From an uncultured Clostridia bacterium (GTDB taxonomy: Bacteria; Bacillota; Clostridia; TANB77; CAG-508): a stretch of DNA of 64,000 nucleotides. This document shows positions 23,452 through 63,914 of this stretch, piece after piece (position 1 is the stretch's first letter; each line of letters opens with the position of its first letter). Position numbers and translations under genes: made by a program. The stretch covers positions 1 to 64,000 of the forward strand of contig CASYFC010000010.1 in assembly GCA_949482135.1 (NCBI GenBank). Reading direction: 5' to 3'. The notes beneath the pieces were generated by a model, which was given only the letters and a program-made list of their open reading frames with translations, searched no databases and was not told the DNA's origin.

Positions 23452-24198
23452 TTAACATAAATCATTCATATTATATAATCCTGGATTTTTATGAACTAGA
23501 TACATAGCAGCTTTTACAGCACCACTTGCAAAAACAGCTCTAGAAGTTACATTATGAGTGATTTCTAAGCTTTCATTATCTCCAAAGAAAATAACAGAAT
23601 GTTTTCCAGCTTCATTTCCACCTCTAATAGAGTGAATACCGATTTCTTTTTTATTTCTTTTTTCACGTTTTCCATGTCTGTTATATTCATAGTACATTGT
23701 ATTATCTAGGGCCTGATTAATACTATCTGCAAGAATTAAAGCTGTACCACTTGGACTATCTATTTTTCTGTTGTGATGTGTTTCTATAATTTCAATATCT
23801 GAATTGGATAGTTTTTTTGCAAGTTCAGCAACAAGTTTTGAAAGCAGATTAACTTCATAAGACATATTAGGTGATCTAAAAATTGGGAATTCTTTTGAAT
23901 ATTTTTCGATTTTTTCTAAATCCATATCAGATAATCCTGTTGTTGCAATAACAGTAGGAATTTTATTTTTTCTTGCATATTCTAATATATTCATTGTAGA
24001 TATAGGAACAGAAAAATCAATTATTACATCTGGTAATAAATCTATACTATTAGTATCTGTAAAAACAGGGAATAGGTTGTCACCTGTATCTGTTCTATCA
24101 ACTCCGCAAAGAATTTCGATATCTGGAGTTTTTCTTATTTCTTTTGCAACTTCTTGTCCCATCTTTCCGTTACAACCATTTATCAATACTTTTACCAT
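23452..24198 (-). CDS. dapB: 4-Hydroxy-tetrahydrodipicolinate reductase
   Basis: 248 residues. It reduces HTPA to tetrahydrodipicolinate with NAD(P)H in the lysine/diaminopimelate pathway. The Rossmann motif is INGCNGKMGQEV at the N-terminus. The substrate-binding and catalytic block is ETHHNRKIDSPSGTA, with the catalytic His/Lys. The ending IRGGNEAGKHSVIFFG is typical. It starts with ATG behind TGGAGAA. It is the last gene of a minus-strand operon dapA - HD protein - dapB, with 12 bases between the HD gene and dapB. Confidence 0.97.
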   Translation of the reverse strand: MVKVLINGCNGKMGQEVAKEIRKTPDIEILCGVDRTDTGDNLFPVFTDTNSIDLLPDVIIDFSVPISTMNILEYARKNKIPTVIATTGLSDMDLEKIEKYSKEFPIFRSPNMSYEVNLLSKLVAELAKKLSNSDIEIIETHHNRKIDSPSGTALILADSINQALDNTMYYEYNRHGKREKRNKKEIGIHSIRGGNEAGKHSVIFFGDNESLEITHNVTSRAVFASGAVKAAMYLVHKNPGLYNMNDLC

Positions 24199-24210
24199 TT
24201 TTTCTCCAAT

Positions 24211-24720
24211 CTATAAAAATTTAATTTTTTTTCGTAAAACTCTTAACATTTCACGAGAGGCACAATATTTATCTACTAAAGTAACAATATAGCTTTCTCT
24301 ATGAGAAGGAAGTTTTAATGTAAGTGGCCACATATGTTTAAGAATTATATCTTGTTCAAGTTCATTAAGATCAAACAAATCTTTAGCATTATTTAAAGCA
24401 ATTCTAGGGTGTCGAAACGCATGAAACTTTTTTTGACCTTCAACATTTTTATCTCTCCAATCATAGTAATAAAAATCATGAAGCATTGCACCACGAGCAG
24501 CAGAGATATAATCTAGTTTTAGTCTTTTACAAATTGCATATGTATAAAAAGAAACACATAAACAATGATAATATCTAGATTTATTTTTATGCTGAACGCG
24601 ATTTTTTAGTGATAATACATTAGGATTTGTTGCGATATCACTAATTATAGATTTAAATTCATTTATACTAGGTTCAGATATAACTAAACTTTGATTATCT
24701 TTTGTAATTTCACTGTTCAA
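24211..24720 (-). CDS. HD-domain phosphohydrolase-like protein inside the dap operon
   Basis: 169 residues if started at the TTG at 24720, which has ATAGGAG eight bases upstream; the more distal ATG at 24747 spans that ribosome site. HD signature residues are His in RYYHCLCVSFYTYA, the pair HD in GAMLHDFYYYD, His in LKHMWPL and Asp in TLVDKYCAS. The fold predicts a metal-dependent phosphohydrolase, substrate unknown. It is placed between dapA and dapB with tight spacing, so it is co-expressed with lysine/DAP synthesis; a functional link is inference only. Confidence 0.75.
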   Translation of the reverse strand: MNSEITKDNQSLVISEPSINEFKSIISDIATNPNVLSLKNRVQHKNKSRYYHCLCVSFYTYAICKRLKLDYISAARGAMLHDFYYYDWRDKNVEGQKKFHAFRHPRIALNNAKDLFDLNELEQDIILKHMWPLTLKLPSHRESYIVTLVDKYCASREMLRVLRKKIKFL

Positions 24721-24791
24721 GATAAATACTCCTATCTTTTGGCACATACTGAATATGTGATTAAATTTTTATTATAATTTATTTTAACATA

Positions 24792-25679
24792 TTATTTTAT
24801 TAAACCAAATGTTAATAATTCACTTTTTAGTTTTTCTTTTCCAGGATTACTCATTTCAAGAAGAGGTAAACGAGGTGTTCCAACATTGTATCCAATCATA
24901 TTTAAAGCAGCTTTAACAGGGATTGGATTTACTTCACAGAATAGTGCTTTAATTAGAGGAATAGCCTTTATTTGGCTATTAATAGATTCTTTTAAATTTC
25001 CTTTTTCAAAATTTTCTACAATATTATGAGTATATTCTGGTGCAATATTTGATAAAACTGAAATAACACCAATTCCGCCAACTGCCAGAATAGAAGTTAT
25101 TTGATCATCATTACCAGAATAGATATTTAAATTATCTTTGCAAAGATTTGCAATTTCAGCAATTTGTGAAAGATTGCCACTAGCTTCTTTTATAGCAACA
25201 ATATTTTCAATTTCAGATAATTTTTTGCAAGTTTGAGGCAAAATATTTACACCAGTTCTACTAGGAACACTATATAAAATTATAGGTAATTTTGTTTGAG
25301 TTGCAATAGTAGAATAGTGAGCAATTAAACCATCTTGAGTTGTTTTATTGTAGTAAGGAGTAACTATTAAAGCTCCATCTACACCAATACTTTCAGCCCA
25401 TTTTGTAAATTCAATTACTTGTGCTGTACAATTTCCACCAGTACCAGCGATTACTGGAATTCTTCCATTAACAGTTTTTACAGCAAATTCAATTGTTTGT
25501 TTTCTTTCATCAACAGTCATAGTTGAAGATTCACCAGTAGTTCCACAAACTATAATGCTATCTACTTTGTTTGCAATTTGAGATTCGATTAATTTCTCAA
25601 ATTGGTTAAAATTAACACCATTTTCATTAAAAGGTGTAACAATGGCTGTTCCACAGCCTTTAAAAATAACTTTTTTCAT
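24792..25679 (-). CDS. dapA: 4-Hydroxy-tetrahydrodipicolinate synthase
   Basis: 295 residues. It condenses pyruvate with aspartate semialdehyde, the first committed step to DAP/lysine. A TIM barrel with GTTGESSTM, the catalytic Tyr in LYSVPSRTGVNI and the Schiff-base Lys in IVAIKEASGN are seen. It starts with ATG behind a GGAAATT-type site (ATAGGAAATTTTT). It is the first gene of the operon. Confidence 0.97.
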   Translation of the reverse strand: MKKVIFKGCGTAIVTPFNENGVNFNQFEKLIESQIANKVDSIIVCGTTGESSTMTVDERKQTIEFAVKTVNGRIPVIAGTGGNCTAQVIEFTKWAESIGVDGALIVTPYYNKTTQDGLIAHYSTIATQTKLPIILYSVPSRTGVNILPQTCKKLSEIENIVAIKEASGNLSQIAEIANLCKDNLNIYSGNDDQITSILAVGGIGVISVLSNIAPEYTHNIVENFEKGNLKESINSQIKAIPLIKALFCEVNPIPVKAALNMIGYNVGTPRLPLLEMSNPGKEKLKSELLTFGLIK

Positions 25680-25835: not shown

Positions 25836-26864
25836 TCATAATAGTTCATTTAATTCTAATATTAATTTTTCTGTTTTTTCCCAACCTAAACAAGGATCTG
25901 TAATTGATTTTCCATATATTTTATCTTGTATAGTGCAAGTACCATCTTCAATATAGCTTTCTATCATAAGGCCTTTAACAATTTTTTTTATGTCATTTGA
26001 TTTATTTCTACTATTTAAAACTTCTTTTGAAATTCTAATTTGTTCTTCATATTTTTTACCAGAATTAGAATGATTTGTATCTATAATTACAGATGGATGA
26101 ATTAAACCCTTTTTTACATATTTATCATTTAAAGAAACTAAATCTTCATAGTGATAATTAGGTAATGCTTTTCCTTGATTATTTACATATCCTCTTAAAA
26201 TAGCATGAGCATATTCATTTCCAGAAGTTTGAACTTCCCAGCCTCTATAAATAAATTTATGAGAACTTTGGGCAGCCATAATAGAATTTAGCATTACAGA
26301 AATATCTCCACTTGTTGGATTTTTCATACCAGCAGGCATATCAAATCCACTTGCTGTCATTCTATGATGTTGATCTTCAACAGATCTTGCTCCTATAGCA
26401 ATATAAGATAGAATATCTGAAAGATATTCATAATTTTCTGGGTATAACATTTCATCAGCACAAGTTAAACCTGTTTCTTTTACAACATTAATATGTAATT
26501 TTCTTATAGCCTCTAAGCCATTTTTCATATCCTCTTTTCCTAATACATCTGGTTGATGAAGCATACCTTTATATCCAGTACCAGTTGTTCTAGGTTTATT
26601 TGTATAAACTCTAGGAATAATAAAAATTTTATCTGAAACTTTTTCTTGGATTTTGGCAAGTCTTTTTATATAATCTAAAACACTTTCTTCACAATCAGCT
26701 GAACAAGGACCAATTATTAATAAAAATTTATTTGATTTTCCTGATAGTATATTTTTTATTTCTAAATCTCTTTTTTCTTTTAAGATTTTCATATTTTCAG
26801 TTACAGGATATTTCTTTTTTATTTCTTCTGGTGATGATAATTTTTCAATATAATTTATTCCCAT
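25836..26864 (-). CDS. aroF: 3-Deoxy-7-phosphoheptulonate (DAHP) synthase, type I
   Basis: 342 residues, normal for the AroF/AroG/AroH class. It condenses PEP with erythrose 4-phosphate, the first step of aromatic amino acid synthesis. Motifs: LLIIGPCSADCEES, RVYTNKPRTTGTGYKG, GARSVEDQHHR, DTNHSNSGK and the C-terminal MIESYIEDG. I chose the ATG at 26864, seven bases after GAGGAGG; an in-frame start at 26891 would lie upstream of that ribosome site. A leader-peptide attenuator precedes it. The symbol is generic; the E. coli isozyme it matches cannot be told. Confidence 0.95.
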   Translation of the reverse strand: MGINYIEKLSSPEEIKKKYPVTENMKILKEKRDLEIKNILSGKSNKFLLIIGPCSADCEESVLDYIKRLAKIQEKVSDKIFIIPRVYTNKPRTTGTGYKGMLHQPDVLGKEDMKNGLEAIRKLHINVVKETGLTCADEMLYPENYEYLSDILSYIAIGARSVEDQHHRMTASGFDMPAGMKNPTSGDISVMLNSIMAAQSSHKFIYRGWEVQTSGNEYAHAILRGYVNNQGKALPNYHYEDLVSLNDKYVKKGLIHPSVIIDTNHSNSGKKYEEQIRISKEVLNSRNKSNDIKKIVKGLMIESYIEDGTCTIQDKIYGKSITDPCLGWEKTEKLILELNELL

Positions 26865-26885
26865 TTTTTCCTCCTCAAATTTATA

Positions 26886-26921
26886 AAACAAAAAACCTTA
26901 CTTAAGCTAATAAGTAAGGTT
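26886..26921 (-). terminator. Attenuator terminator in the DAHP synthase leader
   Basis: On the minus strand AACCTTACTTA pairs perfectly with TAAGTAAGGTT (11 bp, 6-base loop, 26894-26921), followed by TTTTTTGTTT. It lies between the leader peptide and aroF, only about 20 bases before the aroF ribosome site, so it must be conditional. Confidence 0.88.
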
Positions 26922-26959
26922 CTAATTTTATTATATTTTTATTTACGTAAAATATAAAA

Positions 26960-27067
26960 TTATAACAACTTACTAATAGCTTTTTCCATACAAAAATAAG
27001 CATAGAAACCAAAAAAGGCTACGCTGTAAAAGTTATATGAAAATACGCTATTAATTGAGTGTTTCAT
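26960..27067 (-). CDS. Aromatic-rich leader peptide of the DAHP synthase attenuator
   Basis: 35 codons. ATG behind AAAGGA. Residues 9-25 read FSYNFYSVAFFGFYAYF, which holds ten of the seventeen as Phe (6) or Tyr (4). This is the hallmark of a leader peptide whose ribosome stalls when charged tRNA-Phe or tRNA-Tyr is scarce. The last codons (Ala30-Lys33) have the RNA sequence GCUAUUAGUAAG (plus-strand 26969-26980), complementary with a small bulge to the 5' arm and loop of the downstream terminator. A stalled ribosome leaves it free to form an antiterminator; a ribosome that finishes at the UAA masks it. The mechanism is inferred. Confidence 0.85.
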   Translation of the reverse strand: MKHSINSVFSYNFYSVAFFGFYAYFCMEKAISKLL

Positions 27068-27095
27068 TTTTTCTTTTCCTTTACAATTTTTTACT

Positions 27096-27124
27096 AATAT
27101 ACAATATTTTTTATTTCTTGTCAA
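27096..27124 (-). promoter_or_regulatory. Promoter of the DAHP synthase leader
   Basis: On the minus strand: TTGACA (27119-27124), 17-base spacer, TATATT (27096-27101), about 30 bases before the leader-peptide ATG. Confidence 0.8.
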
Positions 27125-27154
27125 TAAAAAAATTTTTATAGGAAACAATTAGTA

Positions 27155-27217: not shown

Positions 27218-27571
27218 GGGGGTGTATTTGGTTTCGACAGTATTCTAGAAGGATAAATAGCGAGTAGTGGAGATGCCTGGCCACTTAAAAAGGCATAAAT
27301 TAAAAATAAACGCTGATAATAAAGAATTAGCATTCGCTGCCTAATTGTGGCGACGTCTTACTTTTGAAACCCACGGCTTAAGATAAGGCGACGATTAGTG
27401 GGAAACGAAGCTAATAATTGTTTTCGTTATTAGTGGGATATTTTGAAAACTACTTTAAATAAACTTTGTTTGTTTGGGATATTTAGAGGAAATTTTAATA
27501 ACAAACTGCACTCGGAGAAGTTTATTTTGAAGGGATTCTGGACAGGAGTTCGATTCTCCTCACCTCCACCA
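27218..27571 (+). ncRNA. ssrA: Transfer-messenger RNA (tmRNA)
   Basis: About 354 nt. The 5' end GGGGGTG pairs with CACCTCC before the encoded ACCA at 27568-27571. The tRNA-like domain has the TTTGGTTTCGAC motif near the 5' end and the GTTCGATTC T-loop near the 3' end. The tag frame GCT GAT AAT AAA GAA TTA GCA TTC GCT GCC TAA (27312-27344) encodes ADNKELAFAA. It rescues stalled ribosomes with SmpB. The tag ends in AFAA where ALAA is the most common form. Confidence 0.95.
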
Positions 27572-63893: not shown

Positions 63894-63914
63894 AATAATT
63901 ATCAATAACTAAAA

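Follow-up and report, generated by a model that had tools for sequence, protein, structure and literature searches.

The aroF gene on a 64,000-nucleotide stretch of DNA from an uncultured Clostridia bacterium (contig CASYFC010000010.1, positions 1 to 64,000; this whole stretch is called the window below) is preceded on the minus strand, at 26886-27124, by a leader that very probably acts as a ribosome-mediated transcription attenuator: its sequence and modelled folds suggest that it would sense charged tRNA-Phe and, less certainly, charged tRNA-Tyr, and control 3-deoxy-D-arabino-heptulosonate 7-phosphate (DAHP) synthase. Computation finds a short open reading frame (ORF) rich in phenylalanine and tyrosine codons, three mutually exclusive pairings, leaders of the same type in relatives, and a second class of leader in the company of genes of aromatic amino-acid metabolism.

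Architecture of the aroF leader

The leader combines an amino-acid-rich ORF preceded by a Shine-Dalgarno (SD) sequence with an intrinsic terminator, an antiterminator strand and a further hairpin (Table 1). The ORF encodes the peptide MKHSINSVFSYNFYSVAFFGFYAYFCMEKAISKLL, in which residues 9-25 comprise 6 Phe and 4 Tyr among 17. Dinucleotide shuffling of 26886-27124 yields no ORF with 10/17 aromatic residues in 5000 trials, and one with at least 9/17 in 5 of them. Aromatic-rich readings are not rare in the AT-rich window: of its 1044 readings from start to stop that span 20-60 codons, with nested starts counted separately, 19 reach 9/17. Among those 19, an SD-like sequence is found only at the leader ORF, read from its ATG.

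The predicted fold of the leader has an energy of -49.2 kcal/mol, where shuffled sequences average -35.1 (z -3.6; 0/200 shuffles). Strand 1 is predicted to pair with strand 2 in a hairpin (1:2) that encloses the aromatic codons; strand 2 may instead pair with strand 3 (2:3), across an internal loop of 2 nt against 3; and strand 3 belongs to the terminator hairpin (3:4), which has 13 pairs counting G-T, 3 of them G-C. These three predicted helices are mutually exclusive, which is the trp-type layout. A terminator scan of the leader returns 2 terminator-like sites (the terminator and its opposite-strand image) versus 0.1 in shuffles. Evidence for the leader promoter, taken alone, is weak: 6 promoter-like sites are found versus a shuffled mean of 4.4. 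Boxes resembling the promoter occur, by eye, at a similar position in the four class-A relatives described below.

The original prediction, made from the letters of the window, had named the promoter, the ORF with a good ribosome site, the 10/17 aromatics and the terminator with its U-tract before aroF, all of which are confirmed in the sequence. It had drawn the pairing of strand 2 with the terminator arm with a single bulge; the pairing stands, in the form of the internal loop given above. Its logic, that of the pheA and trp attenuators, had been built on 2:3 and 3:4 and is supported; strand 1, in codons 5-7, and with it the 1:2 hairpin, had been missed.

We infer the working of the leader from this architecture, from the start site, translation, stalling and strand masking to Phe versus Tyr specificity and quantitative behaviour. 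RNA polymerase would start at about 27090, with a ribosome following on the 35-codon leader. With Phe and Tyr in ample supply, the ribosome would reach the UAA and cover strand 2; 3:4 would form and transcription would end at about 26890. If Phe or Tyr were scarce, the ribosome would stall in codons 9-25, blocking 1:2 and leaving strand 2 free to pair with strand 3; the terminator would fail and aroF would be transcribed. In the absence of translation, 1:2 and 3:4 would both form, and aroF would be off.

Table 1. Coordinates of the aroF leader and the gene behind it
Feature	Position in window	Strand	Basis
Promoter: -35 TTGACA (27124-27119), 17-nt spacer, -10 TATATT (27101-27096)	27096..27124	minus	consensus match 11/12
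Shine-Dalgarno-like AAAGGA of the leader ORF	27077..27082	minus	read from sequence
Leader ORF, 35 codons, Phe/Tyr-rich; ATG 27067, stop 26960 (UAA)	26960..27067	minus	ORF list and relatives
Aromatic run, codons 9-25, 10/17 Phe/Tyr	26993..27043	minus	sequence and shuffle test
Strand 1, ATTAATAGC, codons 5-7	27047..27055	minus	predicted fold; pairs with strand 2
Strand 2, GCTATTAGTAAG, codons 30-33, antiterminator 5' strand	26969..26980	minus	identical in five genomes
Strand 3, CTTACTTATTAGCTT, terminator 5' arm and loop	26904..26918	minus	pairs with strand 2
Intrinsic terminator hairpin (3:4), U-tract to about 26890	26892..26923	minus	terminator scan and relatives
aroF, type I DAHP synthase (TIGR00034 aroFGH)	25836..26864	minus	profile match and structure alignment

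Two classes of leader among relatives

Leaders of the window type before aroF (class A) were sought among draft genomes. A DAHP synthase of the aroF kind is encoded in 14 of 53 genus genomes, and 5 of those 14 carry a class-A leader (G000, G005, G008, G015 and G023); these are the genomes with the closest enzyme (79-100% identity). Across 390 family genomes, a class-A covariance model (R1) has five matches, each in a different genome, at those five loci. All five leaders contain an aromatic run with codon changes, as the original prediction had asked of relatives, and so do the class-B leaders described below. Strand 2 (GCTATTAGTAAG) is identical in 5/5, including L083, in which the ORF stops 5' of it, and L085, which reads it in a different frame. 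Its letters are invariant while the reading frame changes, and strand 2 is therefore kept as RNA, which makes a clear case for the mechanism from comparison.

The 1:2 hairpin, the 2:3 duplex and the terminator hairpin are each predicted in all five class-A leaders, with 1:2 of L083 in a shifted register. The 2:3 duplex has energies of -12.1 to -15.8 kcal/mol, equalled by 1, 10, 12, 3 and 6 of 300 shuffles in the five leaders. In register, 93.3% of alignment cells are paired for 1:2 and 98.0% for 3:4 (95.8% together), compared with 14-55% when the strands are slid. The window does contain the AT-rich spacer stem that was thought to bring strands 2 and 3 together; across the relatives, neither the length nor the fold of the spacer is constant.

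Nine leaders from the same family follow the same plan in other letters (class B), a set built by inspection of the regions upstream of aroF and of prephenate dehydratase (PDT) genes and with two further models. Model R2, at an expectation value (E) of 0.1, gives 8 matches in 6/390 genomes, those outside its building set lying before pheS, before a permease gene and at one rejected site; R3, at E 0.05, gives 10 matches in 9/385 genomes, those outside its building set lying before aroF, before aroQ and at another rejected site. The rejected R2 match (G037:C5, E 0.069) lies inside a gene that reads, by eye, as a CcdA-like membrane protein; the rejected R3 match (G310:C15, contig 313-415, E 0.026) lies opposite a 253-aa ORF and has no ORF passing the aromatic filter. 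A search of 196 genomes of the class with the class-B model gave 0 matches in a set that holds no known positive.

The genes that follow class-B leaders suggest a small regulon that can be read off the sequence. An aroF gene follows a class-B leader in G037, G033, G042, G226 and G466. In G042:C5 (L124) the leader is followed by pheA and an aminotransferase gene, and aroE, aroB and aroC matches come after them on the same contig strand; the other leaders lie before pheS in G087:C3 (L135), before aroQ in G486:C60 (L147) and before an amino-acid permease gene in G002:C3 (L137). Among PDT upstream regions, a class-B leader occurs in 1/25 (L124), with weak matches in L119, L126 and L127.

Class-B leaders mostly start with TTG (ATG in L137; TTG or ATG in L146), and the seven that were counted each have 8-11 Phe and 2-5 Tyr. 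In all nine (9/9), strands 2 and 3 of the same leader pair, with energies between -10.3 and -15.1 kcal/mol, while strand swaps between classes A and B give a mean of -6.2 and at best -10.6 kcal/mol. The 2:3 helix of five aligned leaders is 100% paired in register and 42-66% when slid. Five leaders read strand 2 as F(N/S)E-stop; it lies in a different frame in L137 and L146 and after the stop in L147, and has the stop inside it in L100. A hairpin brackets the aromatic codons in class B too, the pairing of strands 1 and 2 itself being predicted for class A only.

Covarying pairs, which the original prediction had also looked for, are present: one class-A terminator pair changes from A-U to G-C, on both sides, in two relatives, and two class-B antiterminator pairs are changed on both sides. 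Judged against column shuffles the signal is modest, in the class-B antiterminator as elsewhere. The constancy of strand 2 through frame changes and the gene company of class B appear to be the stronger arguments.

A survey of aroF upstream regions required an SD sequence, an ORF of 12-45 codons with 7/15 aromatic residues and a terminator; two of 95 regions were too short, leaving 93. The 11 that pass comprise four class-A leaders, four class-B leaders, L023, L066 and L036, compared with 0 in 20 passes over shuffled sequence and 0 on the reverse strand. L023 and L066, from drafts of other Clostridia, share a third leader sequence with a good 2:3 duplex. An aromatic ORF and a terminator also occur in L036, L056 and L075, but 25, 103 and 114 of their 300 shuffles, respectively, match the 2:3 duplex; being not significant in this respect, these leaders are not counted as support, and L056 and L075 also fail the survey test. 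Further aromatic-rich upstream ORFs (L005, L010, L022, L031, L032, L044, L054, L059, L063, L076 and L081) are taken as chance or unproven.

Opposing evidence and rival explanations

Several observations weigh against attenuation. The class-A covariation score over 1:2 and 3:4 is reached by 50/500 column shuffles and the number of doubly changed pairs by 362/500; for class-B 2:3 the corresponding figures are 27/500 and 212/500. Class-A 2:3 has no covariation (500/500 column shuffles, with L083 offset by one column in that alignment), because there is too little variation. Class A amounts to five sequences, all from draft genomes, in which the frame changes of L083 and L085 could in part be assembly errors, and the terminator of L085 is weak (-6.9 or -10.0 kcal/mol in two computations). 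Of the 93 aroF homologues, 82 do not pass the survey, whose test misses likely true leaders such as L085 and therefore undercounts. Within the leader, two inner promoter-like sites (26988-26959 and 26958-26930, each 10/12 to consensus) could give transcripts that carry the terminator without the ORF. Finally, class-A genomes lacking other shikimate genes, as described below, sit badly with a simple supply role.

Among other explanations, the one that survives best, highly improbable as it is, takes the ORF for a small gene whose product is a functional hydrophobic peptide, membrane-located or toxin-like, and the hairpin for the terminator of that gene. In its favour are an aromatic-rich product of 35 aa, a promoter before the ORF, a terminator after it and further promoter-like sites between the ORF and aroF. 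Against it, the nucleotides are kept and the C-terminus is not (L083 is truncated and L085 frame-shifted), the terminator arm can be matched base for base by strand 2 through complementarity in 5/5, and the relatives that are kept precede aromatic genes and one permease gene. A Pfam search with the leader peptide matched no family.

It is very unlikely that the leader works by direct binding of tRNA or a metabolite, as a T-box or some other RNA would, with no need for translation of the ORF. T-boxes are in use in the genome (6 matches, of which 4 exceed the cut-off), but such an RNA would leave the aromatic coding run and the SD sequence unexplained, and none is found here: across the whole window, Rfam at gathering score returns only a transfer-messenger RNA (tmRNA) and one tRNA, with no leader, T-box or riboswitch at the aroF leader, and with E up to 10 the region 26840-27150 gives only unrelated, unconvincing weak matches. 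At 18 relative loci, the same search at gathering finds no leader family, its only matches being a tmRNA in L082 and, at L036:416-665, a T-box distant from the leader.

An equally small probability is given to a translation-coupled attenuator of the antibiotic type, which would respond to general ribosome inhibition rather than to Phe or Tyr. Ribosome-stalling leaders with terminators do occur in Firmicutes, bmrCD being an example; yet aromatic codons dominate the present leaders, and the genes behind them serve aromatic biosynthesis or encode Phe-tRNA ligase or a permease. That a Phe/Tyr ORF arose by chance in an AT-rich intergenic stretch, beside a terminator that is not regulated, is scarcely credible, for all the 19 Phe/Tyr-rich readings in the window, given the shuffles and fold z described above, the retention of the leader in five genomes and the genes accompanying class B; moreover, the relatives differ mutually in letters and flanks and are therefore not copies of one contaminant.

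The probable target gene and known attenuators

The product of aroF scores 280.7 bits against TIGR00034 (curated cut-off 173.2) and, across residues 4-340, aligns to a DAHP synthase of solved structure. Its best named relatives, the 80 best of 593, are 61-68% identical and come mostly from Lachnospiraceae and other Clostridia, the remainder being a few Bacilli, one Acidaminococcus and one Treponema; the assignment to a Clostridia-like lineage rests on them. In the class-A genomes the ratio of nonsynonymous to synonymous substitution rates is 0.08-0.20 (10 pairs), and aroF is thus under purifying selection. The dapA and dapB genes lie downstream of aroF (23452-25679, minus), placing aromatic and lysine-pathway genes side by side. 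A tmRNA gene (27218-27571, plus) is divergent from the aroF leader, and a tmRNA is also near the leader in L082.

The rest of the pathway poses a puzzle. Searches confined to AroC, AroB and AroE among the shikimate steps found chorismate synthase in 4/53 genus genomes, 3-dehydroquinate (DHQ) synthase in the same 4/53, and shikimate dehydrogenase in 3 of the 13 genus genomes tested; none of the three was found in any of the five class-A genomes, which are 85-95% complete. In 14 positive-control genomes the same enzymes were detected in 14, 11 and 14, respectively. PDT is encoded in 3/5 class-A genomes. In G018:C1:148456-149500, a draft genome, chorismate synthase is in two pieces, one with an internal TAA. 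Genomes in which the searches for three later shikimate enzymes came up empty thus have a selected and apparently regulated aroF. One tentative and rather doubtful explanation is that the class-A enzyme, under Phe/Tyr attenuation, acts where the remainder of the shikimate pathway is absent, and that the DAHP made during Phe/Tyr starvation, or a derivative, feeds an unknown or shared (cross-feeding) route to aromatic amino acids.

Leader-peptide attenuation is a classical mechanism, and in enterobacteria the pheA (pheL) and pheST (pheM) genes are controlled by Phe-rich leader peptides and competing hairpins. The leaders described here share with pheL and pheM the Phe-rich leader, the competing hairpins and targets of the pheA and pheS type; they differ in having aroF as main target, a Clostridia-like host and no Rfam leader family at gathering. 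T-boxes (RF00230), which bind tRNA directly and bring about antitermination on uncharged tRNA, are present in this genome, whereas the aroF leader has no T-box match at gathering. One T-box over the cut-off begins at the end of the window, at 63909 (G000:C10:63909-64149, plus), and extends past it.

The original prediction had held such an attenuator to be unusual in Gram-positives; the use of T-boxes by this genome agrees with that view, and published precedents in part remove it. Firmicutes have leader-peptide attenuators for his genes, hisS*/hisZ (PMC2965389), and Staphylococcus aureus has one for ilv-leu (PMC5794164); as far as the available portions of these reports describe them, they share the ribosome-mediated mechanism, an amino-acid-rich leader and a terminator with the aroF leader, and differ in amino acids, genes and sequences (PMC2965389, PMC5794164). 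Closer still in its target, the upstream ORF uORFC-13-1, known from 24 representatives in Acholeplasma or unknown organisms, has at least one Phe codon, is followed directly by an intrinsic terminator, lies exclusively upstream of aroF and is predicted to act by attenuation, according to the available part of that report (PMC8632094). Compared by description, it resembles the present leaders in its Phe-coding upstream ORF and terminator before aroF; unlike them, it is described in that part without the full set of 1:2, 2:3 and 3:4 pairings and with aroF as sole target (PMC8632094).

In the open-licence literature searched, no report was found of a Phe/Tyr leader for aroF in Clostridia. The mechanism is not unprecedented, and the leaders match no Rfam family at gathering. 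In a Clostridia-like lineage that has T-boxes as well, classical leader-peptide attenuation appears to recur as a control of genes for aromatic amino acids, with one leader class, B, standing before aroF, a pheA/aro cluster, aroQ, pheS and a permease gene.
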